Shown here piece after piece: positions 45,368 to 62,019 of a stretch of 64,000 nucleotides of DNA. Position 1 is the stretch's first letter. Each line of letters opens with the position of its first letter. A program made the translations under genes and the position numbers. This stretch comes from Agrobacterium pusense (GTDB taxonomy: Bacteria > Pseudomonadota > Alphaproteobacteria > Rhizobiales > Rhizobiaceae), in NCBI RefSeq assembly GCF_900102105.1, contig NZ_FNBB01000006.1:186001-250000 (forward strand). Reading direction: 5' to 3'. The notes below the pieces were generated by a model. The model was not told the origin of the DNA, ran no database searches, and saw nothing but the letters and a program-made list of their open reading frames with translations.

Positions 45368-45580
45368 GCGCAATCGGACATGCGAGACTGAAGCCGCTCA
45401 ACCAAGCCGGACCAGATCTTGATCGAGATTGTATTTCGCGCCTGACGTGTAGCGTAATGGCCGAATACTTCCCGAAGCTCTACCAATATCATTGCAAAAA
45501 AACACCAGTGGGTCGCGAAGCCTCCAGCTTCCGGTTCGGCGCGCGAGCCATTGCACTTGTGCGGGATCAATAAAGCGTTA

Positions 45581-45609
45581 TTGACTGTCTCTTCCGATCA
45601 AGCCATATC
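45581..45609 (+). promoter_or_regulatory. Possible sigma-70-type promoter of rmlC
   Basis: TTGACT (45581-45586) and CATATC (45604-45609) are 17 bases apart, 32 bases before the rmlC start. The -10 box is a weak match to the rhizobial consensus. It is the only reasonable promoter I see in the 273-base gap after the helicase. Confidence 0.35.
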
Positions 45610-45640
45610 ACCGTCGAGAGAGACCAGACAGGACCGCGAA

Positions 45641-46210
45641 ATGCAACTAGAAGCATTCCCCATATCGGGCGTGAAAAAGATAACCCCAGCCCGCTTCGGC
45701 GATAGCAGAGGTTACTTCAGCGAGGTTTTCAAGCGGGAGTGGTTTCGCGAGAACGTCGCGGACGTTGAGTTCGTGCAGGATAACGAATCTCTGTCAGCCC
45801 AGGCAGGAACCGTGCGAGGGCTTCATTTTCAAACGGAACCCTTCGCACAGGGCAAGCTCGTTCGTTGCATCCGAGGGCGGCTGCTCGACGTCGCGGTCGA
45901 TATTCGGACGGGGTCACCGACTTTTGGACAATGGATTGCCGCTGAGCTATCGCCAGAGAATGGCGACCAACTCTGGGTGCCGGCGGGATTTGCGCATGGT
46001 TTCATGACGCTCGTTGACGACACTGTCATCTCATACAAAGTGACGGCTCCCTACAGTGCCGCCAATGACCGCGGTGTAAAATGGGACGACCCCGCCATAG
46101 GCATAAATTGGCCTGAACTGGACGGCATCGTCCTTTCAGATAAAGACGCAAAGCAACCGCTTCTGTCCGATCTGCCTGAATATTTCACTTACGAAAAAAC
46201 TGGAAACTGA
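45641..46210 (+). CDS. rmlC: dTDP-4-dehydrorhamnose 3,5-epimerase (RmlC)
   Basis: A 189-residue cupin epimerase, the third enzyme of dTDP-L-rhamnose synthesis. The catalytic His is in [18 protein letters not shown] and the [10 protein letters not shown] and VQDNES motifs are family hallmarks. The ATG at 45641 was chosen because the homology starts at [16 protein letters not shown]. Its stop overlaps the rmlB start (TGATG). Also known as RfbC. Confidence 0.96.
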
Positions 46211-47268
46211 TGATGCGCGTTCTAGTGACCGGCGGCGCCGGATTTATTGGCTCCGCCCTTGTACGCTACTTGGTGAGCGAGATTGGCGCCGATGTTCTCA
46301 CCGTTGACAAACTCACATATGCGGGAAACCTCGCGTCACTGAAGCCGATCGAGAATGCGCCCAATCACCGCTTCCTTCAGGCCGACATCTGTGACCGGAC
46401 AGCGATAAACGACGCATTTGCGACATTCGAGCCGGATTACGTGATGCATCTGGCAGCCGAGAGCCACGTCGATCGCTCCATCACAGGGGCTGCTGACTTC
46501 ATTCAGACCAACATCAACGGCACCTTCACGATGCTGGAGTCGGCGCGGCAGTATTGGAGCACTCTTGAGGGCGACGCCAAGGCGAATTTCCGGATGCTGC
46601 ACGTGTCGACAGACGAGGTGTACGGCTCACTCGGCGACCACGGTCTTTTTGAAGAAACCACGCCTTACGATCCTTCATCGCCCTACTCTGCCTCAAAGGC
46701 CGCAAGCGACCATCTGGCGACCGCCTGGCAGCGGACATATGGCCTTCCAGTCGTCATTTCCAACTGTTCTAACAATTACGGCCCGTTCCACTTCCCGGAA
46801 AAGCTCATTCCCCTGATCATTCTGAACGCGTTGGAGGGCAAGCCGCTGCCGGTCTACGGCAACGGCGCGAACATCCGCGACTGGCTTTACGTGGAGGACC
46901 ACGCCCGCGCACTCTGGCTCATCGTTCAAAAGGGCCTTGTCGGCGAGAAGTACAATGTTGGCGGCAGAAACGAGCAGAAGAACATCGACGTCGTGAACTG
47001 CATCTGCGCCATTCTGGATGAGCTCCGCCCGCAATCGAAGCCTTACGCGCAGCTTATCAAATACGTCACCGACCGCCCGGGTCACGATGCACGTTATGCC
47101 ATTGATGCGACGAAGCTCGAAACAGAACTCGGCTGGAAAGCACAGGAAAATTTTGCGACCGGCATTCGCAAGACCGTACAATGGTATCTCGACAATGCCT
47201 GGTGGTGGCAGCCACTGCGCGAAAGCGTGTACTCTGGAGAGCGCCTCGGCGTTCTGACGAAGGGCTGA
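46210..47268 (+). CDS. rmlB: dTDP-glucose 4,6-dehydratase (RmlB)
   Basis: A 352-residue extended SDR making dTDP-4-keto-6-deoxyglucose, second step in dTDP-L-rhamnose synthesis. The N-terminal motif is [13 protein letters not shown], the catalytic motif YSASK, and [17 protein letters not shown] and [14 protein letters not shown] are all present. It is coupled to rmlC and followed by rmlD after 4 bases. Also known as RfbB. Confidence 0.97.
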
Positions 47269-47272
47269 ACGA

Positions 47273-48166
47273 ATGCGGCTAGCAGTTACGGGCAAAAATG
47301 GTCAGGTCGTCAGCGCTCTTCAGGCACTGGCGAGCGCCGAGCTGGAGATCGTGGCTCTGGGTCGACCGGAACTCGACCTAGCGCAGTCTGAAACTGTTTT
47401 GAAAGCGCTGCGAGAGGTAAAGCCCGATGCTGTGGTATCGGCTGCTGCCTACACCGCTGTCGACAAGGCAGAAAGCGAGCCGGAAATCGCTTTTGCCGTT
47501 AATCGGGACGGAGCAAGGGCCGTCGCGCTGGCGGCAAGTGAACTTGGTATTCCTGTCATTCACCTTTCTACGGATTATGTTTTCGATGGCACCAAGGCAA
47601 CGCCCTATGTCGAAAGTGATGCGACAGGCCCCACTTCCATCTACGGCCGCTCGAAGCTCGAAGGCGAACAAGCCGTTTCTGAGGCTACCGGCAACTACGC
47701 CATTCTGCGAACCGCATGGGTCTATTCGGAATACGGCAACAACTTTGTAAAAACCATGCTCCGGCTGAGCGAAAGCCGCGACGAGATCAATGTGGTCGCG
47801 GACCAGTTCGGATGCCCAACCTCGGCCAACGATATCGCCACCGCTATAGTAGCAATCGCAAGGAAACTCCAGGAAGATTCCTCGATCCGTCGCCGTGGTG
47901 TTTTTCATCTTTCCGGAACCGGGGAAACGAACTGGGCGAATTTCGCGAAACAGATATTCGCATTCTCTGAAGAGAACGGCGGAAAGTCGATGATCGTCAA
48001 CGACATCTCGACTGCGCAGTACCCTACCCCGGCCCGGCGTCCGGCAAACTCGCGGCTTGATTGCAGCAAGCTGGAAGCGGTTTACGGCATAAGGCTCCCA
48101 AACTGGAAAACATCAACGCGCGCGGTCGTTACCGCTCTTGCGCAGAGCAAAAAGGAAACGCCATGA
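47273..48166 (+). CDS. rmlD: dTDP-4-dehydrorhamnose reductase (RmlD)
   Basis: A 297-residue SDR, the final step to dTDP-L-rhamnose. The N-terminal cofactor motif is GKNGQV, followed by [10 protein letters not shown], the catalytic YGRSK, and [10 protein letters not shown]. The stop overlaps the rmlA start by 4 bases (ATGA). Also known as RfbD. Confidence 0.96.
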
Positions 48167-49029
48167 AAGGCATTATTCTGGCCGGAGGCAGCGGTACGCG
48201 CTTGCATCCTATGACATTGGCGGTCTCGAAGCAGATCCTCCCGGTCTACGACAAGCCTATGATCTATTATCCACTGACCACGCTGATGCTGGCCGGCATC
48301 CGCGAGATTCTCATCATCTCAACTCCCCATGACATGCCGCTTTTCCAGTCTCTCTTGGGCGATGGCTCAAAGTGGGGTCTTTCCATTGAATATGCGGTTC
48401 AACCCAGCCCGGATGGGCTGGCGCAGGCCTATATGATCGGCGCGGACTTCGTGGCGGGTTCACCATCCTGCCTTATCCTTGGCGACAACATTTATTACGG
48501 CCACGGCCTGCCCGACTTGCTTGACAGTGGCACGAACGTGATAGACGGCGCGACCGTGTTTGCCTATCACGTGAACGACCCGGAACGATATGGCGTGGTT
48601 GACTTCGACGGCGAAATGCGTGCCCTCTCCATCGAAGAGAAACCGCTTAAACCGAAATCAAGCTGGGCAGTTACTGGTCTCTATTTCTACGACGCGGACG
48701 TAGTCGACATCGCAGCCAATCTCAAACCCTCGCCACGTGGTGAATACGAAATTACAGACGTTAATCGGATTTATCTTGAGCGCGGCAAGCTAAAGGTATC
48801 GATCATGGGCAGAGGTTACGCTTGGCTCGACACGGGCACGCCGGATAGTCTTCTCGAGGCGGGTGAATTCGTGCGGACGCTGGAAAAGCGGCAAGGGTTC
48901 AAGATCGCATGCCCGGAAGAGATTGCCTTGAGCAAGGGCTTTATTACGAAATCGCAGTTTTCGATGCTCGCTGAAAATGCCGGGAAAGGTGATTATGGTG
49001 TATATCTAAGGAGACTCGCAGCGTCATAA
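48163..49029 (+). CDS. rmlA: Glucose-1-phosphate thymidylyltransferase (RmlA)
   Basis: A 288-residue nucleotidyltransferase that starts dTDP-L-rhamnose synthesis. The signature [13 protein letters not shown] opens the protein, with [15 protein letters not shown] and [10 protein letters not shown] as further hallmarks and [12 protein letters not shown] near the C-terminal part. The longer open frame upstream is a shadow of rmlD; the ATG at 48163 is correct. It closes the rmlCBDA operon. Also known as RfbA. Confidence 0.97.
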
Positions 49030-49144: not shown

Positions 49145-49981
49145 ATGACTGCATTATCGCTTTCAGACGTAACGGTGGTCTCTGTTTGTTACAAGAGCGA
49201 TGCCCTGATAAGAGAAATGGTTGAGACAGTCCCTGAATCGACACCTATAATTCTTGTTGACAATGGCAAAACGACTAACTTTGCGGCATTACCTGCGGCT
49301 AGACAGATAACCGTCGTTCAATTGGAGAACAATCAGGGCTTTGGCCGCGGCTGCAACGCGGGCGCGTCGGCTACGAAGACTCCTTGGATTTTGTTTTTAA
49401 ACCCCGACGCACGCTTGACCGCCGGCGCTATTGAAGCATTGCTACAGGCAATCGACAATCATCCAAACGCCGTCGCATTCAATCCGCGAATTTCCAATTC
49501 GAATGGAAGCGAATATTTTAAGCGGCGGTCTTGGCTATTGCCGCGTAACCGCTACATGAAGAAAGGCTGGCCGGCTGCAGATGCCGTCGTTCCTATTTTG
49601 AGCGGAGCTGCCCTTTTTGTTTCAAAGCAAAAATTCGCTGCGGCGGGAGGTTTTGATCCCGACATCTTCCTCTACCATGAAGACGACGACCTGTCGTTGC
49701 GTCTCGGAAAACTGGGACCGCTCATGTTTGTACGCGATGCTCTAGTTTACCATGCTTCGGGGCACTCTTCAGGCCGATCCCCCGAGATCGCGCGGCTCAA
49801 GGCTTTTCATATGGCCAAGTCAAGAATTTATACCGGAACAAAGCACCATCGGCCATTCCCAAGAATATCCACCTTCGTTCAAGCTCTAGCTCTGATAATG
49901 TCACCCAGCGTTCTATTTTCGGCGCGCCGACGGGCTAAGGCCTTCGGTTTTCTCAAGGGTACCGTCGAGTCTCTCAGGTGA
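49145..49981 (+). CDS. Family 2 glycosyltransferase (rhamnosyltransferase-like)
   Basis: A 278-residue inverting GT2 (GT-A fold) enzyme. Family features are TVVSVCYKSDALI, NNQGFGRGCNAGA, the metal-binding DXD-like NPDA, and a C-terminal HEDDDLSLRL. This pattern matches WbbL/WbbB-type rhamnosyltransferases, so dTDP-L-rhamnose made by the adjacent rml operon is a likely donor. It converges on the epimerase gene at 50012. Codons are more A/T-rich than in the metabolic genes upstream. Confidence 0.85.
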   Translation: MTALSLSDVTVVSVCYKSDALIREMVETVPESTPIILVDNGKTTNFAALPAARQITVVQLENNQGFGRGCNAGASATKTPWILFLNPDARLTAGAIEALLQAIDNHPNAVAFNPRISNSNGSEYFKRRSWLLPRNRYMKKGWPAADAVVPILSGAALFVSKQKFAAAGGFDPDIFLYHEDDDLSLRLGKLGPLMFVRDALVYHASGHSSGRSPEIARLKAFHMAKSRIYTGTKHHRPFPRISTFVQALALIMSPSVLFSARRRAKAFGFLKGTVESLR

Positions 49982-50011: not shown

Positions 50012-50926
50012 TTACTGGTGCTCCTTCAACCAAGACCAAACACCAGCAATGCCTTGTCTCAAACCAATTTTAGGCTCCCAGTCAAAATCCATCTTCGCTC
50101 GTTCTATGTCGAGAACGGACACTGGGACGTCGAGGCTTCTATGAGGCTTGTAAACAATCGGTATGGGACTTCCAGTAATCTCCTGAACGATTTCTGCTAT
50201 ATGCAGAACGGAGGTCCCTGTCCCGCTACCTCCGTTGTATACCCCAACCTTATCACTAAGCAACGCGGTAACGCATAGGCTGCTAAGATCTTTGACGTGA
50301 ATATAGTCACGGATCGCTGAGCCATCTCCCCATATTTCTATGGGCTGGTGCTTAAGTGCGAGGTTGAGATATGTGCCAATTATACCTTGGACTCCCAAGT
50401 TGCCCTGATAAAGACCGTAAGGATTGGATGCCCGGATTACGACGGGTTTCAGCCCGGACTTGATCTCATAAAGCTTTAGATAAGACTCTATCGCAACCTT
50501 CACCACACCATATGAACATATTGGATCCAGTATGTGCCCCTCCGGAATTGGGACCTCCTGCGGCTTGCCGTAGACTGTACCTCCAGACGACAGGTAAAGA
50601 ATCCGGGTCACGTGGGACGCCGCCATGTCCTCCAGAAGGCTTAAAGTTCCGAGCAGATTCAACTCAACGTCCCTGCCCGGATCCTTATCGCCGGTGGACG
50701 GCACTGTCCCGCTGACGAGATGCGCGACAGCGTTGACATCGGCCAAGAGCTCGCGGATAAGTTTGCTATCTGCCAAATCTCCTGAGACATATTCTACGCC
50801 TACCGGCAGCGGGCGAGTAGGAAGGTCGCTTCTCCCCAACACCGTGACTTGGTGTCCAGCAACCATCAAATCTTCGACAAGATGGTAGCCGATGAACCCA
50901 CCGCCACCTAGAACCAAAATCTTCAT
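50012..50926 (-). CDS. NAD-dependent nucleotide-sugar epimerase/dehydratase
   Basis: A 304-residue extended SDR: MKILVLGGGGFIGYHLVEDL holds the Rossmann motif and the catalytic YGVVK is near residue 143. The SGGTVYG, RASNPYG and IWGDGSAIRDYIHV segments place it in the GalE/RfbB superfamily, near UDP-glucose 4-epimerase-like proteins. The exact reaction cannot be fixed from sequence. It shares the strand with, and is downstream of, the 1016-residue protein (gap 30 bases), so the two are likely cotranscribed and supply or modify the polysaccharide. Confidence 0.85.
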   Translation of the reverse strand: MKILVLGGGGFIGYHLVEDLMVAGHQVTVLGRSDLPTRPLPVGVEYVSGDLADSKLIRELLADVNAVAHLVSGTVPSTGDKDPGRDVELNLLGTLSLLEDMAASHVTRILYLSSGGTVYGKPQEVPIPEGHILDPICSYGVVKVAIESYLKLYEIKSGLKPVVIRASNPYGLYQGNLGVQGIIGTYLNLALKHQPIEIWGDGSAIRDYIHVKDLSSLCVTALLSDKVGVYNGGSGTGTSVLHIAEIVQEITGSPIPIVYKPHRSLDVPVSVLDIERAKMDFDWEPKIGLRQGIAGVWSWLKEHQ

Positions 50927-50956: not shown

Positions 50957-53900
50957 TCATTTATTTGCGAGCACGGAACGATAATGATCAATATACTCGC
51001 CAGCGAGGACATCTATGTCGTACGTCGCGCCTAGGACTTTCGCTTTCTCTTTGAAGTCGTCACGGACGTTTTTTTCCAAGATTTTTTCCATGGCGTTGCT
51101 GAGTTCAATGACAAATTGCTCATTGTTGCTCTGATTTGCGATAATAATCCCTGCCTGCTGGCCATTGATCTGTGACATTGCCTTGATCTCACCGATATCA
51201 GTCGAGACACAAGGCACACCGACTTGAAGCGCTTGTATAAGGCATAAAGGATAAGATTCACCCGGAAAACGTGTCGGGATCAGAGCGACATCGCTTATAC
51301 GGTAAAGACCGTATACTTCCTTAACAAAGCCAAGGAAGTGTATCGTTGGGTCCGCCGCCGCTAACCGTTTAGCATCATCAGTTGCGGGACCCTCGCCCAC
51401 CATCATCAGCGCCATCGGAACGTCAGGTCGCCGCTCCCGCAACAAGCGATACGCTCTGACGGCCTCTACCCAGCCTTTACCTTCAGCACCTCTAGCGACA
51501 AGCGAGAATACGATAGCATCATTCGCAATCCCCAATTGCGAACGCGTTTTCGGAAACGGCAGATTGTCAACAGGCATCGCATTTTTTATTTTTACGAATT
51601 TCCCCCCCCCAATCTGGAGATCGTCGAATGGCCTTAGGTTGCGATCAGCAGTGTAGGCAAATCTGTCGATTTTCTTGCTCCAACGGGCGATCCTGCTAGT
51701 GGAGACATCCATCGCCTCGTATGAGCCATGCAGTGTCGTAATAAAGGGCGCCGAAATACCTTTTCCGTCGAGCAAGAACCCTTCCACGTTGGCAACGTGC
51801 GAATGCACAACGGAAATCCCTGCGTTCCTAATGAAATTATCTATCCCCATGTCGCGAACCGCATTGGCCGTATAGACAGGAATGCCAGGATCGAGCATAC
51901 GCCGCACGTCTTTGTGATCGTCCGCGTCGTGCATCTGAAGAATCGAAACCATCATCCCCTTGCGCCGAAGCGCGTTCGCGAGATGAATCGGGAATATTTC
52001 GCCACCTCCGAAAGAAAACCCTAGAATGCCGACAAGCACATGGATTTGTTCACGCGACACAGTCCTAAGGTCTTGGTAATTCAGTAATCTTTCAAATTCG
52101 TCAGACGGGAGGCCTGCGCCCCTCGAGACGCTGCGACAGACATCGATGAAGCGCGCAAGCGTTGCATCTGGTATATCCCATTGCTTCTTCAAAAAAGTCA
52201 TCAACCGCGCGTATTCTTTATAATACTCTGGTTTTGACTGGGCGCTGCTTCCAGACGTATTGCTCTCGTGAATCCGGAAATAGCTGACGGCGCTTGGCTC
52301 ATATGCAATTTGGCCACCACCTGCGATAATTGAATAAAGGTACCAATCTCCCATGACTTTGAAATTTCTGGCTTCCTCCCAGGCCTGATCGGAAATCTCA
52401 AAACGCCGCCACAGGCTTCCTCCGACATTAGCAATTACATTTTTTACGCCAAAGCCACCCTGGAACCATTCGGCTGCCGGGCGGGTCGTACGTGCGTCCC
52501 ATATCCCTGGCTCACTTTCCTCGCGGTAGTTATCAAGCCCAGCGAAATATTCACCCTGATCATTCACAAATTGAATACGCCCGAAGGACATCATCACACT
52601 TGGGTCGCGAAATGTGTTGATCATCCTTTCCACGAAAGTCGTTTCGCAAAAATCATCGCTTTCGCAAATCCAGACTAGATCGCCCTTTGCCAGTGAATGA
52701 CCTTTTTGCCATTGACGGAACACGTTTCCAGAGTTCTCAGTATTATAGACCGCCCTAATACGCTCAGGGAAACGGTTGACGTAAGATTCGATTACCAAGC
52801 GGCTGTCATCACTGGAGTGATCATCCAAAACCAGAATGTCAACGAGAGGATAAGTTTGCGCCAGAATACTATCCAGGCGCTGTGGAAGATACCGGGAGTG
52901 ATTGAAGTTCGGTACGATCGCGGTCACCCTTATTCCACTTCGGGCGCTGATACTGGTGCGACTCGCGGCGATAATCTTGTTCGAACTGACCTTCTGGTAA
53001 TAGTCGAGGCAGAACAGATCGACCTTGCGCGACAGCAACATCGGATCGCGTTTTTCCGCAGATTTCAAAAACCTCTTGCGTCTGCGGCTGCTAAGGACGC
53101 GAAACTCTGACAATGCATATAACAACCTAGCATAAATGAGCCTCGTCAGTAGTTTTGACAAGGAAGCTCGGCTCATCCAGTTGCTTCTCTGAAGAGAATC
53201 GACCTGACCAGAGATATGGTCAATATCCTTCATCAGCGTGTCCGACCATAGCGTCTTTTCGAATTCCACACGCTTCAAAACAGGCTCAGAAGACTGAACA
53301 TCCTGCGTGAAGACTCCGTTCATACTCAGGCTATCAAGCGGCTGATCCGACGCGACTCCAATCATATACATGGGCGTCCCAACACCACTGGTTGTTAAGC
53401 CGCTTTTAGACTCAGTTTCGAAAAACCTCGCAGGCTGATTTTCACTAGCGATGATCGAGCCAAAACCTATTTTCTGCCCGTGCAAAGAGACATACTCAAA
53501 GTGCCGCGACAGCAAATCGTTGAACTCATTCTTGAAAAGCTCTTTAACGTGAAAGGGATTAACTAGCTTTGTTGCAACTGTGTACGCGTACTTTTCCGGG
53601 GTCGAAATCACCAAAGTTCCACCTGGCCGCAGCACGCGCTTCACCTCTTGCAAAAAGCGATCATGGGCATCGATGTGCTCAAGCGTTTCGAAAGACACTA
53701 CGACATCCACAGATGCGGAAGGCAGAGGAATGTCTTCACACACGCCCACTTTGAAGCAAATGTTCGCGGCGGTGTACTTCTTCTGAGCATGCTGCACGGC
53801 AGCATCTGAGATATCGACTCCTATGGCGGAACGTGCGCTTTCCGCGAGTAGCGCTGTTCCAAATCCTTCACCACTGGCAATGTCCAGAACGTCTTTGCCT

Positions 53901-54007
53901 TCGACAATTTTTTTCGCCAGATGGTACCGATGCACGTGCTCGAGATAGATGTTTCCGCCAATAGCCGGAAGATAGCGCTCGCCAGTGAATTCAAGGTTAT
54001 CGGACAT
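50957..54007 (-). CDS. Giant methyltransferase-GT2-GT4 fusion protein
   Basis: A 1016-residue three-module protein. Residues about 1-220 form a class I SAM methyltransferase (SAM motif VLDIASGEGFG at 40-50, then DVVVSFETLEH). About 360-590 is a family 2 glycosyltransferase (VTAIVPNFNHSRYLPQRLDSIL, with DD and SDD metal motifs such as ICESDDF). About 655-1010 is a family 4 glycosyltransferase (LGFSFGGGEIFPIHLA, ...GEGKGWVEAVRAY, FPGESYPLCLIQAL). No signal peptide or membrane helix was seen. It should work at the cytoplasmic face on a lipid-linked glycan. The N-terminal module is paralogous to that of the divergent 1679-residue protein. Acceptors and linkages are unknown. Confidence 0.85.
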   Translation of the reverse strand: MSDNLEFTGERYLPAIGGNIYLEHVHRYHLAKKIVEGKDVLDIASGEGFGTALLAESARSAIGVDISDAAVQHAQKKYTAANICFKVGVCEDIPLPSASVDVVVSFETLEHIDAHDRFLQEVKRVLRPGGTLVISTPEKYAYTVATKLVNPFHVKELFKNEFNDLLSRHFEYVSLHGQKIGFGSIIASENQPARFFETESKSGLTTSGVGTPMYMIGVASDQPLDSLSMNGVFTQDVQSSEPVLKRVEFEKTLWSDTLMKDIDHISGQVDSLQRSNWMSRASLSKLLTRLIYARLLYALSEFRVLSSRRRKRFLKSAEKRDPMLLSRKVDLFCLDYYQKVSSNKIIAASRTSISARSGIRVTAIVPNFNHSRYLPQRLDSILAQTYPLVDILVLDDHSSDDSRLVIESYVNRFPERIRAVYNTENSGNVFRQWQKGHSLAKGDLVWICESDDFCETTFVERMINTFRDPSVMMSFGRIQFVNDQGEYFAGLDNYREESEPGIWDARTTRPAAEWFQGGFGVKNVIANVGGSLWRRFEISDQAWEEARNFKVMGDWYLYSIIAGGGQIAYEPSAVSYFRIHESNTSGSSAQSKPEYYKEYARLMTFLKKQWDIPDATLARFIDVCRSVSRGAGLPSDEFERLLNYQDLRTVSREQIHVLVGILGFSFGGGEIFPIHLANALRRKGMMVSILQMHDADDHKDVRRMLDPGIPVYTANAVRDMGIDNFIRNAGISVVHSHVANVEGFLLDGKGISAPFITTLHGSYEAMDVSTSRIARWSKKIDRFAYTADRNLRPFDDLQIGGGKFVKIKNAMPVDNLPFPKTRSQLGIANDAIVFSLVARGAEGKGWVEAVRAYRLLRERRPDVPMALMMVGEGPATDDAKRLAAADPTIHFLGFVKEVYGLYRISDVALIPTRFPGESYPLCLIQALQVGVPCVSTDIGEIKAMSQINGQQAGIIIANQSNNEQFVIELSNAMEKILEKNVRDDFKEKAKVLGATYDIDVLAGEYIDHYRSVLANK

Positions 54008-54110
54008 TTACTTTCCTTGGCAAATCCGTGGCTCCCAGGGAGCCGGATATCGCATTCTCCGGTTTGAGTCGAGGGAACGATAGTAGGCTTGGTTGGTCTC
54101 AGCAATTCCA

Positions 54111-57100
54111 ATGAAGAGCGGGGGTCCTGGGCTTATCGTAAATCGCTCCTGCTTCTTCGAACTCAAATTTGTGACTCCAGACGGGGCGAGGGAAGCAACC
54201 TACGTAGACGCATACCGCCAGATTTCGCACGAACAGCGCTCAATCCGGCTACCCGTGGATGGAATAAATGGCGCAAATGGGGCAACAGACGCACTGAAAA
54301 AGGCCGATGGTTCAACCGCAGGTGTTGCGGTACGCAAGCTGATCCTTTATTCAACCAGCCCAGTGGCTATAGAGGGCGAAATGAAAACTGAATTCGACAC
54401 GACAAAAAGGAAATTGCCTAGCTTTACGGATCCAAGCGAAAAGCTAGCTTTCGACGGAGAGCGATATGTTTCCGGACATCTGGGACCTACTCAACACGCG
54501 CACCACCACAGGTACCTGTTCGCCGTTCAATTCTGCAGCGGCAAAAATGTGCTCGACGTCGCGAGCGGAGAGGGATATGGATCCGATTTGCTAGCGCAAG
54601 TCGCCACTAGTGTTGTCGGCATCGACATCGACGCAACGACGGTTTTGTATGCGGAGAAGCAGTACGTCCGCCCAAATCTTCAATATATTGCCGCCTCGGC
54701 CACTTCTATGCCCTTGGAAGATAATAGTGTGGATGTCGTCGTCAGTTTCGAGACGATCGAGCACTTGCAAGACCATAAAGCGTTTATGGACGAAATTTGT
54801 CGCGTTTTACGCCCAGATGGAATTCTTATTATATCTTCCCCCAATCGCCCAATATACTCCGATAAAGCAAATTATAAAAATCCGTTCCACGTAAAGGAAC
54901 TTGACTATCAAGAATTCCACAAAATTCTAGATGATAGATTTTCGTCCGTGCAAATGTTTGCACAGCGACAGGCAACCGGGAGCGTGTTATCCCCTCAAAA
55001 CCAGCATTCCCAAGGCATCGAAATTTATGCAACTGGTGACGGCCGAAATTACGAATTGCAGCAACCGTTCGATTGCCCGCAATATTTTTTAGCAATAGCA
55101 AGTAACGAGAAGATCGGCACATATTCTGGTAGTTTCCTAATTAACGACGTTTACGTTCCCAATATTCAAGCGGAGTTAGCTTATCGAGTCCGAGAAGTCG
55201 AATCCGCACGGGCAGAGAACCGTGGACTTAATGGAAAATTGAATAACTCACTGGAGGCCTTGAAGAATATCGACGTGCTCAAAAATTCTTTCGATGAGGT
55301 GAAAACCCTAGTAACAAAGCGGACGGAAACGACCGCCAGTTCCATGACGAGTATCGAAACAGAGCACCACAAATTGCATGATCAGCTCGTTGCGCTAACG
55401 GAAACGACCGCCAGTTCCATGACGAGTATCGAAACAGAGCACCACAAATTGCATGATCAGCTCGTTGAGCTAACGGAAAATGTCCGAGCACAAAGTTTAT
55501 ATTTCGAACATTCTCCAGGAATGATCTGTTGGCGGGCTACCAAGCGAGCGACCTACTTCTTGCGTTACTCCCTGCTCTTAATTCACGCCTTTTTGAGCAA
55601 TCCATTGAGCCGAAGAAGAAGGAGAAGATTCGTTGACCGTAGGATCGACCGGTCCAGCGCCGGATTCCGAGACTTCGCGCTTCGTTCCAGTAAAAAGCTC
55701 CTGCGTATCAAGTGGAAATTGAAAGCGTTCCGTCGCTATCCAACCTCGTCGGCAAGGCGCAAGAGGTGGAGGGATGATAATTTGCTCGATTCCTCTGAGG
55801 GGTCGCATTCTGTGAGAGAGACTGGCCCGACTCTTCACTCACCTGTTGTGGCACAGCCATCTGACGGCAGTCAGAATACGCCGATTCTAACAAGTGCATC
55901 CCTAGCCCTAGAAACCCAGACTCCCCCGCTTCACAGCCGGTTGTACGAAAACTGGGTGGCCAATACACTTGGGCAATATTCAGCTGACGAGCACGTCGCA
56001 ATTTCACGCGACGTGCCGTTAGAAGCCGCCTCTGACGTTCAGCTGATTGCCTATTATCTTCCCCAGTTTCACCCAATTCCGGAAAATGATGCGTGGTGGG
56101 GTAAAGGATTTACAGAGTGGCGAAACGTAGCAAGGGCGTTCCCCAACTTCGAAGGACATTATCAGCCGCGTATTCCGGGTGAGCTGGGGTACTACGACTT
56201 ACGTGTCCCGCAAATTATGCAGCGGCAAGTAGAACTGGCAAAACTATACGGGATTTCAGCTTTCTGCTTCCATTTTTATTGGTTTGCCGGAAAGACACTC
56301 CTTGAGGCGCCGATCGTAAACTTCTTGGAAAATAAGAACCTTGATATCAAATATTGCCTTTGCTGGGCAAACGAAAATTGGTCTCGCCGGTGGGATGGAA
56401 GCGAACATGAGGTTCTGATCTCGCAGGAGCATTCCGACACGGATGACGAAGCGTTCCTTCGCTACGTTAGCAAGTACTTTGCGGACGACCGCTATTTGAA
56501 AGTTGATGGGCGGCCAGTCTTAACCGTTTATCGTCCTTCAATACTCCCAAATCCGAAGGCCACCGTGGAACGCTGGCGTCGAATGGCGAGAGAGATGGGA
56601 TATCCAGACCTTTATCTGATCGCAACAAATTCGTTTGCGTTCAAAGACTACTCGGCATTCGGATTCGACGCTTTGTCCGAGTTCCCTCCACATCACTTGG
56701 GAGGTGAAAATTTACAAAATACCATCGAGATGACCGATCTCAGAACTGGTTGGCGGGTCCGCGACTATAAGCAAGTTGTGGAGTCCGAGAAAAAACGACC
56801 TGTGGGCGAAGGACGTATCCACCCCGGCATAACGATCGGATGGGATAATAGCGCTAGAAAGCCGACGTGGGGAGACATCATCCATAATGCCACCCCCAAA
56901 TTATTCAAAGATTGGCTAAGCTTTTGCGTTTCTCGCGCCAAGCGAAATCCGGCTGAAGAGCAGTTTGTGTTTATCAACGCGTGGAACGAATGGGCTGAGG
57001 GTACGTATTTGGAACCCGACAAACGGTTCGGCTATGCATTCCTTGAGGCATGTTCGCAAGTATTAAAGGAGGAACGATTTGGGCCGCTCCGCCCTCAAGA

Positions 57101-59150
57101 AATCTTGCCCGGTAGCCGTGCCCGGTTGAAAGACCGGCCGACGATACTCGTCTGCTCTCATCACGCTGGTCAAGAGCTTTTCGGAGCAGAGAGATCAATG
57201 CTCGACGTCGTTGAAGCAATTGCCGATAATGACTTCAACGTTATTGTAACTTTACCTAAACATGTCGGCGAAGAGTACCTTAATTCGCTCCGTCAACATG
57301 CAGTTGAGATACGAGTATTTCATTACGAACAATGGACCTCGCAGATTGACAAAACATTCTCGTCGGTCTCTGATTTCATGTCCGTTATTCGGGATACCGC
57401 TTCGGACCTGGTATACGTGAACACCATTGTTTTACGCTCGCCAGTTGAAGCTGCTCGTCTTATGGGAGTGCCAGCCATTGTTCATGCTCGGGAAATAATC
57501 TCTGCCGATGTTAATCTCCAGGAGCAAATTGGCATGCCTGGACAAGAAATCGCGAAAATTGTCGTGAGGAGTTGCACACATATCGTTGCCAACTCCTTGG
57601 CCACAGCCAAGAGTTTTGCCAACGCTCCCGCTGTTTCTACTATACCCAACATTGTGAACTTAGACGAGCTTTCTATCCCTCGAACGATTCAGGACGATTT
57701 CGTTTACTTCGCTTTACTAAGTAGCAATCTTCGAAAAAAAGGCATCGACGACGCGATAGAGATCGCGCTGCGATGCGAAACCGAGGTCCCAAACGCAAAA
57801 TTTCTTATTATTGGTCCCCTCTGGCGGGAAGGCGCACGCGACTTCGTCAACGGACGGCGCCACGCGCCTAATAACGTGGAGTTCATCGACTACATCCCTA
57901 AAACCAGGGACGCGTTAGCGAGAGTGGACGTTGTGCTGAACCTTTCCCATTTTCAAGAGTCGTTTGGCCGAACGGTCCTCGAGGCAATGGCGGCGGGGCG
58001 GCCAGTTATCGTTTATAACTGGGGCGCGCTACCCGAACTGGTAGAACACAACGTTACGGGAATTGTGGTTCCATTCAGAGATATATCAGCTGCGGTGAAC
58101 GCAGTAAGAGAACTGACGGATGTTGAACGGCTCGAGCGCATGGGTACGGCGGCCCAGAAGAGAGCTCGCGTCATCTCCGACCGACAATCATTCAACAAAG
58201 CGATAGGTGAGGCAATCCAAGCGTCCCTCGAAGTAAAATTGCCGTCCCGTAGCGGCCTTATCAGTACCGGAGCTATGTCCGAGGCAACGCTCGATATAGT
58301 AATTTGCGTTCATAATGCTCTTGAGGATGTGCAGCGCTGCCTAGAATCGGTTGATCATCATCGCGGCGAAGGGCATGGGATAATAATCGTAGATGATGGA
58401 TCAGCGTCCGAAACCAGGGACTTTTTGAGCTCCTTCACGGAGAAAAGAACCGATTATGTTAGACTCTTTCGAAATGACGTTTCTACCGGTTATACCAAAG
58501 CGGCAAATACCGGTGTTGGACTTTCGAGCGCCGATACGATAATACTTTTGAACAGCGATACCGTCGTTACTGCCAAATGGGCGGAGAAACTACAAAAGGC
58601 ACTCCACTCTGCTCCCGGAATTGGAATTGCCGGTCCCATGTCAAACGCGGCAAGCTATCAATCGGTACCAAGTGTCGCATCGACCGCTAGTCAGACCGCC
58701 TTAAACCTCCTCCCTGAGGGATGGGGTCCTGATGAGATGAACGCGCTCTGTGAAAGGCATTCGTCGCTTCCTCTACCATACGTTCCTTTAGTCCACGGTT
58801 TCTGCTTCGCGATCAAACGCGAAGCATGGGCATCAGTAGGACCGTTTGATGAAGAAGCCTTTCCCCGAGGCTTTGGTGAGGAGAACGATTTTTGTCTCAA
58901 AGCCGCGAATGCTGGTTTCGGGATGGTAATTGCTACTAATACTTTTGTATATCACTCCAAATCGAAAAGTTATGGGGAGGAACAGAGGCACAAACTGGCG
59001 GAAGCATCGCAGGAAGTTCTGTACGCTCGATACGGAAGAGACCGTATCAAAGATGTATCTCGACTTCTGCTCAACCAACCGCAACTCAGGAATATCAGAA
59101 CAGCTACGATGCGCGCCGTTGCTTCCGGGCCGGACGACATGAACATGTAG
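54111..59150 (+). CDS. Giant methyltransferase-WbsX-GT4-GT2 fusion protein
   Basis: A roughly 1679-residue protein. A SAM methyltransferase lies at about residues 100-330 (VLDVASGEGYG near 147). A linker follows with a 25-residue unit repeated exactly twice (55323-55472, helical), then a basic segment (SRRRRRRF). A WbsX/GH99-like domain (PF14307 type) starts near 642 (LPQFHPIPENDAWWGKGFTEW, CFHFYWFAGK, CWANENWSRRW, INAWNEWAEGTYLEP). A family 4 glycosyltransferase lies at about 1004-1373 (FQESFGRTVLEAMAAGRPV) and a family 2 glycosyltransferase at about 1394-1640 (VDDGS, LNSDT). The start is uncertain: ATG 54111 is used, but ATG 54381 (MKTEFDTTKRK) has a better ribosome site (GAGGGCGAA). It is divergent from the 1016-residue fusion and is probably part of an O-antigen or capsule assembly line. 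Confidence 0.85.
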   Translation: MKSGGPGLIVNRSCFFELKFVTPDGAREATYVDAYRQISHEQRSIRLPVDGINGANGATDALKKADGSTAGVAVRKLILYSTSPVAIEGEMKTEFDTTKRKLPSFTDPSEKLAFDGERYVSGHLGPTQHAHHHRYLFAVQFCSGKNVLDVASGEGYGSDLLAQVATSVVGIDIDATTVLYAEKQYVRPNLQYIAASATSMPLEDNSVDVVVSFETIEHLQDHKAFMDEICRVLRPDGILIISSPNRPIYSDKANYKNPFHVKELDYQEFHKILDDRFSSVQMFAQRQATGSVLSPQNQHSQGIEIYATGDGRNYELQQPFDCPQYFLAIASNEKIGTYSGSFLINDVYVPNIQAELAYRVREVESARAENRGLNGKLNNSLEALKNIDVLKNSFDEVKTLVTKRTETTASSMTSIETEHHKLHDQLVALTETTASSMTSIETEHHKLHDQLVELTENVRAQSLYFEHSPGMICWRATKRATYFLRYSLLLIHAFLSNPLSRRRRRRFVDRRIDRSSAGFRDFALRSSKKLLRIKWKLKAFRRYPTSSARRKRWRDDNLLDSSEGSHSVRETGPTLHSPVVAQPSDGSQNTPILTSASLALETQTPPLHSRLYENWVANTLGQYSADEHVAISRDVPLEAASDVQLIAYYLPQFHPIPENDAWWGKGFTEWRNVARAFPNFEGHYQPRIPGELGYYDLRVPQIMQRQVELAKLYGISAFCFHFYWFAGKTLLEAPIVNFLENKNLDIKYCLCWANENWSRRWDGSEHEVLISQEHSDTDDEAFLRYVSKYFADDRYLKVDGRPVLTVYRPSILPNPKATVERWRRMAREMGYPDLYLIATNSFAFKDYSAFGFDALSEFPPHHLGGENLQNTIEMTDLRTGWRVRDYKQVVESEKKRPVGEGRIHPGITIGWDNSARKPTWGDIIHNATPKLFKDWLSFCVSRAKRNPAEEQFVFINAWNEWAEGTYLEPDKRFGYAFLEACSQVLKEERFGPLRPQEILPGSRARLKDRPTILVCSHHAGQELFGAERSMLDVVEAIADNDFNVIVTLPKHVGEEYLNSLRQHAVEIRVFHYEQWTSQIDKTFSSVSDFMSVIRDTASDLVYVNTIVLRSPVEAARLMGVPAIVHAREIISADVNLQEQIGMPGQEIAKIVVRSCTHIVANSLATAKSFANAPAVSTIPNIVNLDELSIPRTIQDDFVYFALLSSNLRKKGIDDAIEIALRCETEVPNAKFLIIGPLWREGARDFVNGRRHAPNNVEFIDYIPKTRDALARVDVVLNLSHFQESFGRTVLEAMAAGRPVIVYNWGALPELVEHNVTGIVVPFRDISAAVNAVRELTDVERLERMGTAAQKRARVISDRQSFNKAIGEAIQASLEVKLPSRSGLISTGAMSEATLDIVICVHNALEDVQRCLESVDHHRGEGHGIIIVDDGSASETRDFLSSFTEKRTDYVRLFRNDVSTGYTKAANTGVGLSSADTIILLNSDTVVTAKWAEKLQKALHSAPGIGIAGPMSNAASYQSVPSVASTASQTALNLLPEGWGPDEMNALCERHSSLPLPYVPLVHGFCFAIKREAWASVGPFDEEAFPRGFGEENDFCLKAANAGFGMVIATNTFVYHSKSKSYGEEQRHKLAEASQEVLYARYGRDRIKDVSRLLLNQPQLRNIRTATMRAVASGPDDMNM
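55323..55472 (+). repeat. Exact 75-base tandem duplication inside the giant gene
   Basis: Two adjacent 75-base copies (55323-55397 and 55398-55472) differ at one base only, 55393 versus 55468, which changes Ala to Glu. The unit encodes 25 residues (TETTASSM...HHKLHDQLV) and keeps the reading frame. A third partial start, ACGGAAAA, follows at 55473. Near identity shows it is recent. Confidence 0.92.
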
Positions 59151-59195: not shown

Positions 59196-59434
59196 AGGAT
59201 TGGAAACTACGTTGTTGGTAAGCATGCGGCGTTGGGGCGATTTTTCGGGTAAACTCATTCAATCGGTTGTAAGCCCAAGTAAGTTGCCGATTGAATTCGG
59301 GGTGCGCTGCGTCTGGGATATCTGAATCTGCCAAGTTTACTGCACTGAAAAAACGCGTCCGGATGCCGCCACTACATCGACCTTGCCCCCAAGTTTTATC
59401 CATTTTTGAGTTCGCTCCAGCGGTTTTTTTGAAG
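59196..59434. other. Non-coding stretch with possible IS scars
   Basis: Between the terminator and the first IS-end copy no gene is supported. A perfect 10-base inverted repeat, ATTCAATCGG (59257-59266) and CCGATTGAAT (59287-59296), is present. Near 59386 TTGCCCCCAAGTTTTATCC resembles the TGCCCCC-type ends of IS3-family elements and may be a solo end of another element. This is a visual match only. Confidence 0.4.
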
Positions 59435-59533
59435 TGCTCCCCGATTTTGGGCCAACGGGAGCTGGAATTTTCCGGGGTTATGAGGTGCTCCCCGAATTTG
59501 GGCCAGCGGGAGCTGGAATTTTCCGGGGTTATG
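59435..59533. repeat. Duplicated left end of the IS3-family element
   Basis: A 48-base sequence starting TGCTCCCCGA and ending GGGGTTATG occurs at 59435-59482 and again at 59486-59533, 51 bases apart, with two mismatches. Each copy carries CTGGAATTTTCC, which is mirrored at the other end of the element (60672-60683). The element therefore has two left ends. Confidence 0.85.
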
Positions 59534-59535
59534 GC

Positions 59536-60372
59536 TCATGTCGGCGGTGGTGCCGATGAGCCGTTCATGAGCGAAATCGGCACTTTGTTGCCGATCGCGC
59601 TGTGTGGCCGGAACTCATTATAGTCTCTACGCCAATCCTCCATCTTTGCCCGCGCGTCGTCAAGGCTCATGAACCAGTGAGCGTTCAGGCACTCGGCGCG
59701 GAACTTGCCATTAAAACTCTCGATGTAGCTGTTGTCGGTCGGTTTGCCTGGCCGCGAGAAGTCAAGCACGACACCTTTGTGATAGGCCCAGAGGTCAAGG
59801 TCTCGGGAGATGAATTCGCTGCCATTATCCACACGTATGGTCGCCGGATATCCGATCTGTCGGCAGACCCGCTCCAATGTCTGAACGACATCCTCGCCTT
59901 TGTAGCTAAAGCGAGCATCCACCACTGGCGAGAAGCGAGAGAAGGTATCAACAACCGTCAGAACCCTGATCTTGCGACCAGTGGCCAGTTGGTCATGAAC
60001 GAAATCCATCGCCCAGACATGGTTGGAATGGCTAGGCTCCGTGCGGTCAGCCCGCAGCTTCGCCTTGACCCGGCGCTTGGGAACCTTGTTGCGGAGCTGG
60101 AGGTCCATCTCCTTGTAAAGACGATAGATTCGCTTCGGGTTCACAGACCAGCCTTCACGCTTGATAAGGATATGCACACGCCTGTAGCCGTAGCGTATCC
60201 GCGTCTGGCAGATGTCCTTGATCTTCAGCTTTAACTCGGCCTGCTCGCCACGCCTGGACTTGTAGACATAGAGCGACCGGTCGACTTTCAACACCGAGCA
60301 TGCACGCCGGATCGAAACCTTCCAGTCCGCCTTGATCGTGTCGACAAGCTTGCGCTTGCGGGCAGGCCTCAA
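59536..60372 (-). CDS. IS407-type transposase OrfB (DDE integrase domain)
   Basis: About 278 residues with the rve/DDE core of IS3-family transposases. The catalytic residues are D in HVWAMDFVHD, D in IRVDNGSEF and E in NSYIESFNGKFR, with the usual D-35-E spacing. The frame starts at a TTG overlapping the orfA stop, but it is normally expressed by -1 frameshifting from orfA. It looks intact. Confidence 0.9.
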   Translation of the reverse strand: MRPARKRKLVDTIKADWKVSIRRACSVLKVDRSLYVYKSRRGEQAELKLKIKDICQTRIRYGYRRVHILIKREGWSVNPKRIYRLYKEMDLQLRNKVPKRRVKAKLRADRTEPSHSNHVWAMDFVHDQLATGRKIRVLTVVDTFSRFSPVVDARFSYKGEDVVQTLERVCRQIGYPATIRVDNGSEFISRDLDLWAYHKGVVLDFSRPGKPTDNSYIESFNGKFRAECLNAHWFMSLDDARAKMEDWRRDYNEFRPHSAIGNKVPISLMNGSSAPPPT

Positions 60373-60659: not shown

Positions 60660-60876
60660 GGAATCATAAGTGGAAAATTCCAGTTCTAAATGGCCTAATT
60701 CATTGGGGGCACGTCAATGCGCCTGCGCGGCTACAGCTGTCACAATGCTTCTCCGGACTTTTGATTGGGAGATCGTTATTCCAAGAAGATGGACGATTTG
60801 TAAGTTGAGGAGCCGGATTTATAGATCTAAAGCCTGTGACGTTGCGAGGCCAATGACGCCCTCAAAGGAGCCAAAA

Positions 60877-62019
60877 ATGGCAGGTCCAGTTTTCAGTGTA
60901 GTAGACGTCCCGAAGATTCAGAACGTCGACAGTCCGTCATGGGAAAGCAGCGTCCTCTCCAGGCTGGAGGTGTGCCCCGCAGCGCTTGCCAAGCCGGCGA
61001 AAGAGCTTTTGTATATTGATGAACCAGGAGTGAAGACCCACCACTCGCCAAACGATAGCCTTATCGTTGCCAGGCACGAGCCGATCGCTGCATCGTTTCT
61101 GTCGCCAGCACTTCACTGCTACTTCGCCGTTGGCGTCACTGTGTCTGGAAACGGCCTTATGTGGTTGAATAATGAGCTTCAAATGATCGACGAGATCTTA
61201 CCTTCCTACTGGAGCGACCCGCGCAGCGGCATTTCTCCGCAATCGACACCATACAGAGACATTCACCTCCCAGTCAGAACGATCAGTGGCCCTTGTGTGA
61301 GCGGTCCTGGATGGGCTGGCTGGAACTATGGCTACGTTATCCTTGACGTTCTGCCCAGAATCATCGCCGCATTCGAGGTCGTGAAGGGAATGCCCCGCCC
61401 AAAGTTGCTTCTTCAGAGCGATACACCCGACTGGGCGATGTCCATGTTGAAGGCAGTCGGAGTCACGCGAAACGACATTGAGTGGTTCGACCCAACGTCC
61501 GAACGCGTTAAACTGGAACAGGGCATATTCCCGGCAAACCTTGGGACAACCCACCCTTATCTCGAAAAGCTATTTTCCTCCATCGATCCGCATTTCACGC
61601 CCCCAACGCGGTATGGAATGTACTATCTCAGCACGGCGACATTCCCGCGTCGCCGAGGCTGCATAAACGAAGGCGCCTTGGAATCCATTGCGATGAATGA
61701 GTTTGGAGCCGAGGTGATTTGTCTGGAGGAACTGCCATGGCTTGAGCAAGTCCGGCTATTCAGGAGCGCAAAAGCTGTAGTTGGCCTCTCAGGCTATGCT
61801 CTCCACACCGCACTTGTCTCAGATGGTGGCCTAACCGTTGGGCAAATCGGCGCCTCCAATCATCTTCAATCTGCCATCGCGGCACTTCGTGGGCAACGTA
61901 TGGCGTATCAGGTTGGGTTCCCCACGTCGGAATCATATAAAGTTCCGGAGAAGCAATTTAGGGAACTGATGAGTACGATATACCGCCATAGCGCAAGCAC
62001 ATTGGCCAAGGTGGCCTAA
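60877..62019 (+). CDS. GT61-like glycosyltransferase (DUF563)
   Basis: A 380-residue protein with a C-terminal DUF563/GT61-type domain (about residues 130-350). Seen are GPGWAGWNYGYVILDVLPRI, PRPKLLLQSD, YYLSTATFPRRRGCINE and the SAKAVVGLSGYALHTALVSDGG region near the C-terminus, comparable to the conserved Gly-rich acceptor/donor segment of the family. The ATG at 60877 with AAAGGAG eight bases upstream is preferred to the earlier frame start at 60670, which would lie inside the IS end. It probably belonged to the polysaccharide locus before the IS insertion separated it from the giant gene. Confidence 0.75.
   Translation: MAGPVFSVVDVPKIQNVDSPSWESSVLSRLEVCPAALAKPAKELLYIDEPGVKTHHSPNDSLIVARHEPIAASFLSPALHCYFAVGVTVSGNGLMWLNNELQMIDEILPSYWSDPRSGISPQSTPYRDIHLPVRTISGPCVSGPGWAGWNYGYVILDVLPRIIAAFEVVKGMPRPKLLLQSDTPDWAMSMLKAVGVTRNDIEWFDPTSERVKLEQGIFPANLGTTHPYLEKLFSSIDPHFTPPTRYGMYYLSTATFPRRRGCINEGALESIAMNEFGAEVICLEELPWLEQVRLFRSAKAVVGLSGYALHTALVSDGGLTVGQIGASNHLQSAIAALRGQRMAYQVGFPTSESYKVPEKQFRELMSTIYRHSASTLAKVA

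Follow-up and report, generated by a model that had tools for sequence, protein, structure and literature searches.

What might two giant proteins, each joining a methyltransferase to several sugar-transfer modules and encoded beside genes for dTDP-L-rhamnose synthesis, contribute to the glycans of a bacterium? The question arises from a locus of Agrobacterium pusense, lying within the stretch of 64,000 nucleotides that we analysed as a whole (the window). A preliminary description of this DNA had reported two divergent fusions of 1016 and 1679 residues. Both frames were found as reported, P0001 at 54007..50957 on the reverse strand and P0002 at 54111..59150 on the forward strand, running in opposite directions out of a common intergenic region. 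Pfam searches bear out the module content and order given there: P0001 matches, in order, Methyltransf_11 (5.8e-24), GT2 (3e-22) and GT4 (4.1e-18), and P0002 matches Methyltransf_11 (1.7e-24), WbsX (PF14307, 1.7e-132), GT4 (1.9e-22) and GT2 (1e-17), with a predicted long helix between its methyltransferase and WbsX. No kinase module occurs among the Pfam and NCBIfam matches listed for either protein. The SAM motif of the P0001 methyltransferase is intact, and all eight genus members that have the P0001 transferases conserve the GT2 motifs DD, ESDD and DW; in the GT4 EX7E motif of all eight, the second Glu is replaced by Gln (E-X7-Q). The motifs examined in P0002 (GT4 EX7E; GT2 NSD and ENDFC) are all intact.

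A frameshift splitting either protein was a concern raised in the preliminary description. For P0001, frameshift or assembly artefact is ruled out by full-length fused copies in four more genomes of the genus, G034, G007, G017 and G032, at 83, 71, 71 and 68% identity. P0002 has no near-identical ortholog, and the counter-evidence is its single unbroken frame together with distant relatives that carry methyltransferase-WbsX fusions. Its start is probably ATG 54381 (M91), which gives 1589 residues, rather than ATG 54111, because residues 1-112 matched only its own copies among the ORFs compared, related methyltransferases start near residue 100, and the sequence AGAGGG lies upstream of ATG 54381, with none before ATG 54111. 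The 100-base gap originally described between the two genes holds for the open frames, but would widen to about 370 bases with this start. The two methyltransferases, described as paralogous, are indeed homologous (39% identity over 246 aa), but a recent duplication is ruled out by a tree of 15 rows, each longer than 140 aa with E under 1e-10, in which the P0002 domain groups with that of a Kaistia methyltransferase-WbsX protein (91/88) and the P0001 domain with its own genus (100/99). Coordinates are collected in Table 1.

Table 1. Features of the rml locus and of the two fusion genes, in window coordinates unless a neighbour locus (L number) is given.
Feature	Position	Strand	Basis or remark
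rmlCBDA (dTDP-L-rhamnose synthesis)	45551..49029	+	match to rfbC, rfbB, rfbD, rfbA of A. salinitolerans plasmid
Stand-alone GT2 of conserved locus	49145..49981	+	Pfam; in 8/8 neighbour loci L101-L108
NAD-dependent nucleotide-sugar epimerase/reductase, adjoins P0001 on the same strand	50012..50926	-	Pfam; nearest solved chain 4zrm, E 9.9e-49
P0001 MT-GT2-GT4 fusion, 1016 aa	50957..54007	-	Pfam; fused full length in 4 other genomes
P0001 GT4 module, aa 655-1016	50960..52045	-	Pfam and own HMM; second Glu of EX7E is Gln
P0001 GT2 module, aa 358-645	52073..52936	-	Pfam and own HMM; motifs
P0001 class I SAM methyltransferase (MT) module, aa 4-224	53336..53998	-	Pfam and own HMM
P0002 probable protein, 1589 aa from ATG 54381	54381..59150	+	MT homology, AGAGGG
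P0002 class I SAM methyltransferase module, aa 109-354	54435..55172	+	Pfam, own HMM, structure model and fold match
P0002 predicted long helix, aa 352-465, candidate coiled-coil spacer	55164..55505	+	AlphaFold model
75-bp tandem repeat, 2.1 copies, 98% match	55323..55479	+	inside P0002 helix
P0002 WbsX (PF14307), GH99-like barrel; E960, E963 at GH99 catalytic positions	56043..57050	+	Pfam, alignment, model
P0002 GT4 module, aa 1018-1360, EX7E intact	57162..58190	+	Pfam and own HMM
P0002 GT2 module, aa 1390-1640, NSD and ENDFC	58278..59030	+	Pfam and own HMM
MsbA-like ABC exporter	L101:13666-15429, L108:16007-17770, L115:276-2039		near P0001/rml locus in G034, G024, G017

The reported adjacency to rmlCBDA is real, and it recurs: in each of the eight neighbour loci the rml genes are accompanied by the stand-alone GT2 and by all or part of P0001, and three of the eight also have the epimerase, at 91-92% identity. 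The rml genes are 84.6% identical to those of an A. salinitolerans plasmid, and the UvrD-like gene that precedes them shares 94.9% identity with a record of Agrobacterium pusense. On that plasmid, pDG3-1a, which is typed as conjugative, rmlCBDA is accompanied by pseudaminic-acid genes, RgpF and a glycosyltransferase of about 1,012 aa. Among 39 genomes of the genus, nine have a match to P0001 at E<=1e-30. Eight of them, our strain included, encode its GT2-GT4 pair, five with the methyltransferase fused; the ninth (G024) encodes a 904-aa protein in which Pfam found nothing besides a methyltransferase.

Comparison by module, in the order methyltransferase, GT2 and GT4, gave identities to P0001 of 78, 86 and 89% in G034, 76, 75 and 64% in G007, 47, 85 and 79% in G017, and 45, 78 and 73% in G032. 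In G011, G006 and G037 the chain lacks the methyltransferase, and GT2/GT4 identities are 62/59, 63/57 and 61/50%. SAM-site residues are altered in the G017 and G032 methyltransferases, whose tree branches measure 1.18 and 1.09; the remaining three members of the clade have branches of 0.04-0.19. Since the methyltransferase is missing in three of eight genomes and diverging fast in two more while GT2 and GT4 are kept, it is dispensable to that pair; the comparison catches a methyltransferase being lost with its transferases retained. To judge from these sequences, the P0001 methyltransferase appears to supply a decoration and not a cap that is indispensable. Near the P0001 ortholog of G007 lies a second large fusion (L102:12851-15844; 997 aa) with a methyltransferase, Glyco_tranf_2_4 and Methyltransf_24.

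The distribution of P0002 is quite another matter. At E<=1e-60 it was matched in one of 101 genomes, its own, and at E<=1e-80 in seven of 385 genomes of the class, the other six covering the WbsX part only. From P0002 to the end of the contig, 1155 bases beyond the window and 6 kb beyond the gene, there follow an integrase-type ORF directly downstream (59536-60372), a GT61 gene and, 4 kb on, a second integrase-type ORF. From this rarity and these IS-type neighbours we infer that P0002 was horizontally acquired. G+C content is 0.49-0.51 over both fusion genes, compared with 0.55-0.64 in 2-kb windows across the first 48 kb. A 51-bp tandem repeat (59430-59533; 2.0 copies at 94%) lies between P0002 and the first integrase-type ORF, and the GT61-family ORF (60670-62019; PF04577, 5.2e-11) is flanked by the two integrase-type ORFs.

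Relatives of P0002 were collected as 80 loci with 81 WbsX ORFs. In 42 of these ORFs the chain also includes GT2 or GT4, and 37 contain the block WbsX-GT4-GT2. An N-terminal methyltransferase is fused to WbsX in four: L018 (Modicisalibacter), L019 (Chromohalobacter), L020 (Kaistia) and L037 (Paraburkholderia acidicola). The P. acidicola protein has the module order of P0002, methyltransferase-WbsX-GT4-GT2. The two halomonad proteins (L018, 9974-13552; L019, 9977-13444) read methyltransferase-linker-WbsX-RgpF and follow directly after a Wzt_C gene, and in the WbsX proteins of L011, L025 and L028 the methyltransferase is C-terminal; such varied placement of methyltransferase, RgpF and glycosyltransferases indicates that the modules are freely shuffled. 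A basic linker motif (P-T/L-S...RRR..F/W) is present in the linkers of P0002, its Kaistia and Aminobacter relatives and two look-alikes (L040, L066). It was rejected as a family-wide feature: 88 proteins gave seven matches where shuffling predicts 5.15, and another 1389 ORFs gave 17.

Does an exporter accompany these proteins? Wzt_C was searched in 16 genomes chosen from the 80 loci, namely those of the four N-terminal fusions and 12 others. It occurs in eight of the 16, and in all of these except that of L014 it lies inside the flank of the WbsX gene. In L018, L019 and L037, three of the four N-terminal fusions, the Wzt_C gene stands directly upstream of the methyltransferase-WbsX gene on the same strand, with just 11 bases between the frames in P. 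acidicola. No Wzt_C was found genome-wide in the Kaistia relative or in the Aminobacter one (L011), and the profile has 0 matches in our own genome, a 5.28-Mb assembly in 28 contigs. In the genus, three of 39 genomes have Wzt_C, none of them among the eight P0001 carriers. The own genome has three ABC2_membrane matches, whose operons, judged by eye, are of drug-export types and do not resemble Wzm, and elsewhere seven Wzy_C and four Wzx-type matches. The termination logic of WbdD, proposed in the preliminary description, thus gains support for the P0002 architecture from the Wzt_C gene directly ahead of the same head in three of four relatives. For the strain itself the proposal is so far unsupported, as neither Wzt_C, nor a Wzm-like operon by eye, nor a kinase was found; for lack of Wzt_C in the genome, we do not file P0001 and P0002 as members of the WbdD type, but only as working like WbdD.

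A different exporter lies near the P0001 locus in some strains. This ABC exporter (587 aa) is MsbA-like, with 508 bits to the MsbA model, below the model's cut-off of 602. In G034 it lies about 0.5 kb from P0001 and in G017 at about 21 kb, and in G024 the end of rmlC is about 0.6 kb away. The three copies are 96-97% identical and lie on different sides of the P0001/rml locus, and the exporter is absent from the 64-kb window. It could export the glycan of the P0001 locus, or be a mere neighbour.

What the WbsX module does bears directly on the reading of P0002. The module matches PF14307 at 442.6 bits (cut-off 25.1) over profile positions 1-349 of 350. A structure model built from 39 domains reached a pLDDT of 89.9, and Foldseek matched it to 5ngw, a glycoside hydrolase-like protein (4.5e-13), and to the GH99 structure 4ad0 (6.4e-13). 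In structural alignment its best solved match was a glycoside hydrolase-like protein (Z 26.4, 288 residues aligned), with GH99 endo-alpha-mannosidases at Z 23.3-24.7 and 13-18% identity, and GH71 and alpha-1,3-glucanase chains at Z 18.6-20.8. Profile alignment places the WbsX motif NEWAE on NEWHE of BxGH99, and E320 and E323 of the model correspond to BxGH99 E333 and E336, which solved entries carry in the mutant forms E333Q and E336Q. The Glu pair is invariant in 39 of 39 aligned domains, and NEW[AG]E is present in all 81 WbsX domains. Solved GH99 chains are matched only marginally at profile level (E 0.014 for BxGH99, 0.36 for BtGH99), phmmer with the single WbsX domain found no GH99 chain at E<=1, and a candidate solved relative from single-sequence search was a chance match only. 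Database names conflict, "glycosyltransferase WbsX" in Pfam against "glycoside hydrolase family 99-like" in plasmid annotations, and our literature search found no paper that settles whether the chemistry is that of a transferase or a hydrolase. On the model, WbsX is a GH99-fold barrel that keeps the GH99 catalytic Glu pair, which may serve transfer or cleavage.

The remaining part of P0002 is the spacer, which begins only about 20 residues after the methyltransferase module. An AlphaFold model of residues 91-652, from an alignment of 13 rows, has a mean pLDDT of 61.2. The methyltransferase core is modelled confidently (blocks at pLDDT 78-98), and model helices 262-295 and 297-375, at pLDDT 49-67 and in a single chain only, make up a predicted helix of about 114 residues, which would measure about 170 A if it were one straight helix (1.5 A per residue). 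The linker of P0001 has 135 aa, with a longest Pro-free stretch of 79. The repeat-bearing linker of the preliminary description corresponds to the 75-bp tandem repeat, a duplication of 25 residues within the predicted P0002 helix; the 98% match between its copies indicates that the helix recently gained 25 residues. WbdD is not among the best 50 Foldseek matches of the methyltransferase-helix model, which excludes nothing.

The reading towards which we lean, by a modest degree, is that P0001 and P0002 are enzymes that assemble a cell-surface glycan containing rhamnose, with P0001 decorating it and P0002 serving as a horizontally acquired polymerase-and-cap. Both would be cytoplasmic and, we infer, probably membrane-associated. 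P0001 would act as part of a genus locus consisting of rmlCBDA, the stand-alone GT2, the fusion itself and, in some strains, the epimerase; its GT2 and GT4 would add two successive sugars, one of which the methyltransferase would O-methylate, at some putative position, as an optional decoration. In P0002, WbsX, GT4 and GT2 would take their presumed substrates to build a repeat unit, and the N-terminal methyltransferase, spaced off by the helix of about 114 residues, would methylate the growing chain and so may end it. Such capping is modelled on WbdD and on K. pneumoniae O7 ORF6 in ABC-transporter pathways; caps made of methyl alone are known from E. coli O8. In favour of this reading are the modules and their motifs, the recurrence of the locus beside rmlCBDA in the genus, the Wzt_C gene ahead of three relatives, the predicted helix and, from the literature discussed below, the wbsX mutants of Burkholderia gladioli, O7 ORF6 and the methylated sugars of rhizobial O-antigens. 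Counting against it are the failure to find Wzt_C, a Wzm-like operon by eye and a kinase, the loss or divergence of the P0001 methyltransferase in five of eight genomes and the low confidence of the helix. So do the Kaistia and Aminobacter relatives without Wzt_C and the strains G034, G017 and G024, where the candidate exporter nearby is the MsbA-like one instead. Among the papers listed in our literature search, none concerned the P0001/P0002 locus of Agrobacterium.

P0002 would have to be active in a strain where no matching Wzt was found, and may instead be a stranded gene. In the stronger form of that idea, an O-polysaccharide gene was imported on mobile DNA without Wzm/Wzt and is functionless here, so that only P0001 works. 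The single carrier among 101 genomes, the integrase-type ORFs adjoining and 4 kb on, the contig end 6 kb past and the lack of Wzt_C in the genome all point that way. We consider it fairly unlikely, since the motifs are kept and a frame of about 1,600 codons has stayed open with no visible decay; moreover, partner genes could be missing from an assembly in 28 contigs, and Wzx-type flippases do exist in the genome. That the glycan is instead one of flagellin or another protein, made by soluble cytoplasmic transferases without an exporter and not an LPS O-antigen, would fit the same lack of Wzt_C and of a Wzm-like operon, as well as the pairing of rml with pseudaminic-acid genes on the A. salinitolerans plasmid; methylated rhamnose glycans on proteins do exist, an example in the available text of PMC9614988 being that made by PBCV-1 A064R. 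Yet no flagellar or flagellin genes were recognised by eye among the ORFs of the window, methyltransferase-WbsX relatives sit directly after Wzt genes, and in three sampled genomes the locus has an MsbA-like exporter nearby, all of which make a protein glycan quite improbable.

A further rival concerns WbsX within P0002, which might have GH99-like glycosidase activity and trim or edit the glycan, so that one protein both builds and cuts. The GH99 fold (Z 23-26) and the invariant Glu pair speak for this, but a hydrolase in a biosynthetic fusion would presumably waste its product, the 42 of 81 WbsX ORFs with GT2 or GT4 in the chain suit a transferase or transglycosidase better, and at profile level the match to solved GH99 chains is no more than marginal; we regard this rival as unlikely. 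GH99 enzymes work by a 1,2-anhydro-sugar mechanism, and the known members are hydrolases that are not known to be parts of transferase fusions. A bolder proposal, which we offer as speculative and somewhat doubtful, is that WbsX uses the Glu pair and this mechanism to make bonds, as a GH99-fold retaining glycosyltransferase or transglycosidase beside GT4 and GT2 in a single-chain factory, with the methyltransferase held off by a freshly lengthened helical ruler. Because the hydrolase pair is retained, the WbsX question is directly testable. The P. acidicola protein of the same order, directly after Wzt, is a cleaner system than the Agrobacterium strain.

Several known systems share parts of this design. 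WbsX resembles GH99 endo-alpha-mannosidase in its barrel fold and NEWxE catalytic pair, and differs in being only 13-18% identical in structural alignment. Rhizobial O-antigens are described, in the available text of PMC4153317, as commonly containing methylated hexoses and 6-deoxy sugars. Phage-resistant isolates of Burkholderia gladioli carried a nonsense or frameshift mutation in wbsX and had leakier outer membranes; that gene, which spans at least 1,346 codons and encodes glycosyltransferase domains, belongs to an O-antigen cluster with Wzt, and its product can be likened to P0002 by description, as another large WbsX protein with glycosyltransferase domains (PMC13391952, text available in part). 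The three-module PBCV-1 A064R, with two rhamnosyltransferases, a methyltransferase acting on the terminal rhamnose and, in the available text, no kinase, resembles both fusions, but its order is GT-GT-MT, its glycosyltransferases are of other families, its product is a viral N-glycan and the text mentions no long helix (PMC9614988).

The closest parallels come from chain termination. An N-terminal SAM methyltransferase, as in WbdD and O7 ORF6, is present in both P0001 and P0002; of the other components that go with those proteins, no kinase was found among the matches listed for P0001 and P0002, and no Wzt with a C-terminal glycan-binding domain in our genome. In WbdD of E. coli O9a a helix of about 200 A keeps methyltransferase and polymerase apart, comparable with about 170 A for the predicted P0002 helix if straight; unlike P0002, WbdD as presented in the available text of PMC5082667 has a kinase and no glycosyltransferase modules, and its polymerase, WbdA, is separate. 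ORF6 of K. pneumoniae O7 is a proven terminator and polymerase in one chain, methyltransferase-kinase-coiled-coil-GT2-GT2, that uses dTDP-Rha (PMC11231755, here and below as far as its available text goes). It shares with our fusions the N-terminal methyltransferase followed by two C-terminal glycosyltransferase modules and the link to dTDP-rhamnose, and its coiled-coil may have a counterpart in the predicted long helix of P0002. It differs in that a kinase and a CBM-like fold separate its methyltransferase from the coiled-coil and that it has two GT2 modules, where P0001 and P0002 use GT4 plus GT2, P0002 adds WbsX and the genome has no Wzt_C. By analogy, P0001 and P0002 may be a kinase-less form of the kind of fusion proven for ORF6 (PMC11231755), and P0002 a variant of the Klebsiella single-chain build-and-cap proteins without the kinase and with an added GH99-like WbsX module.
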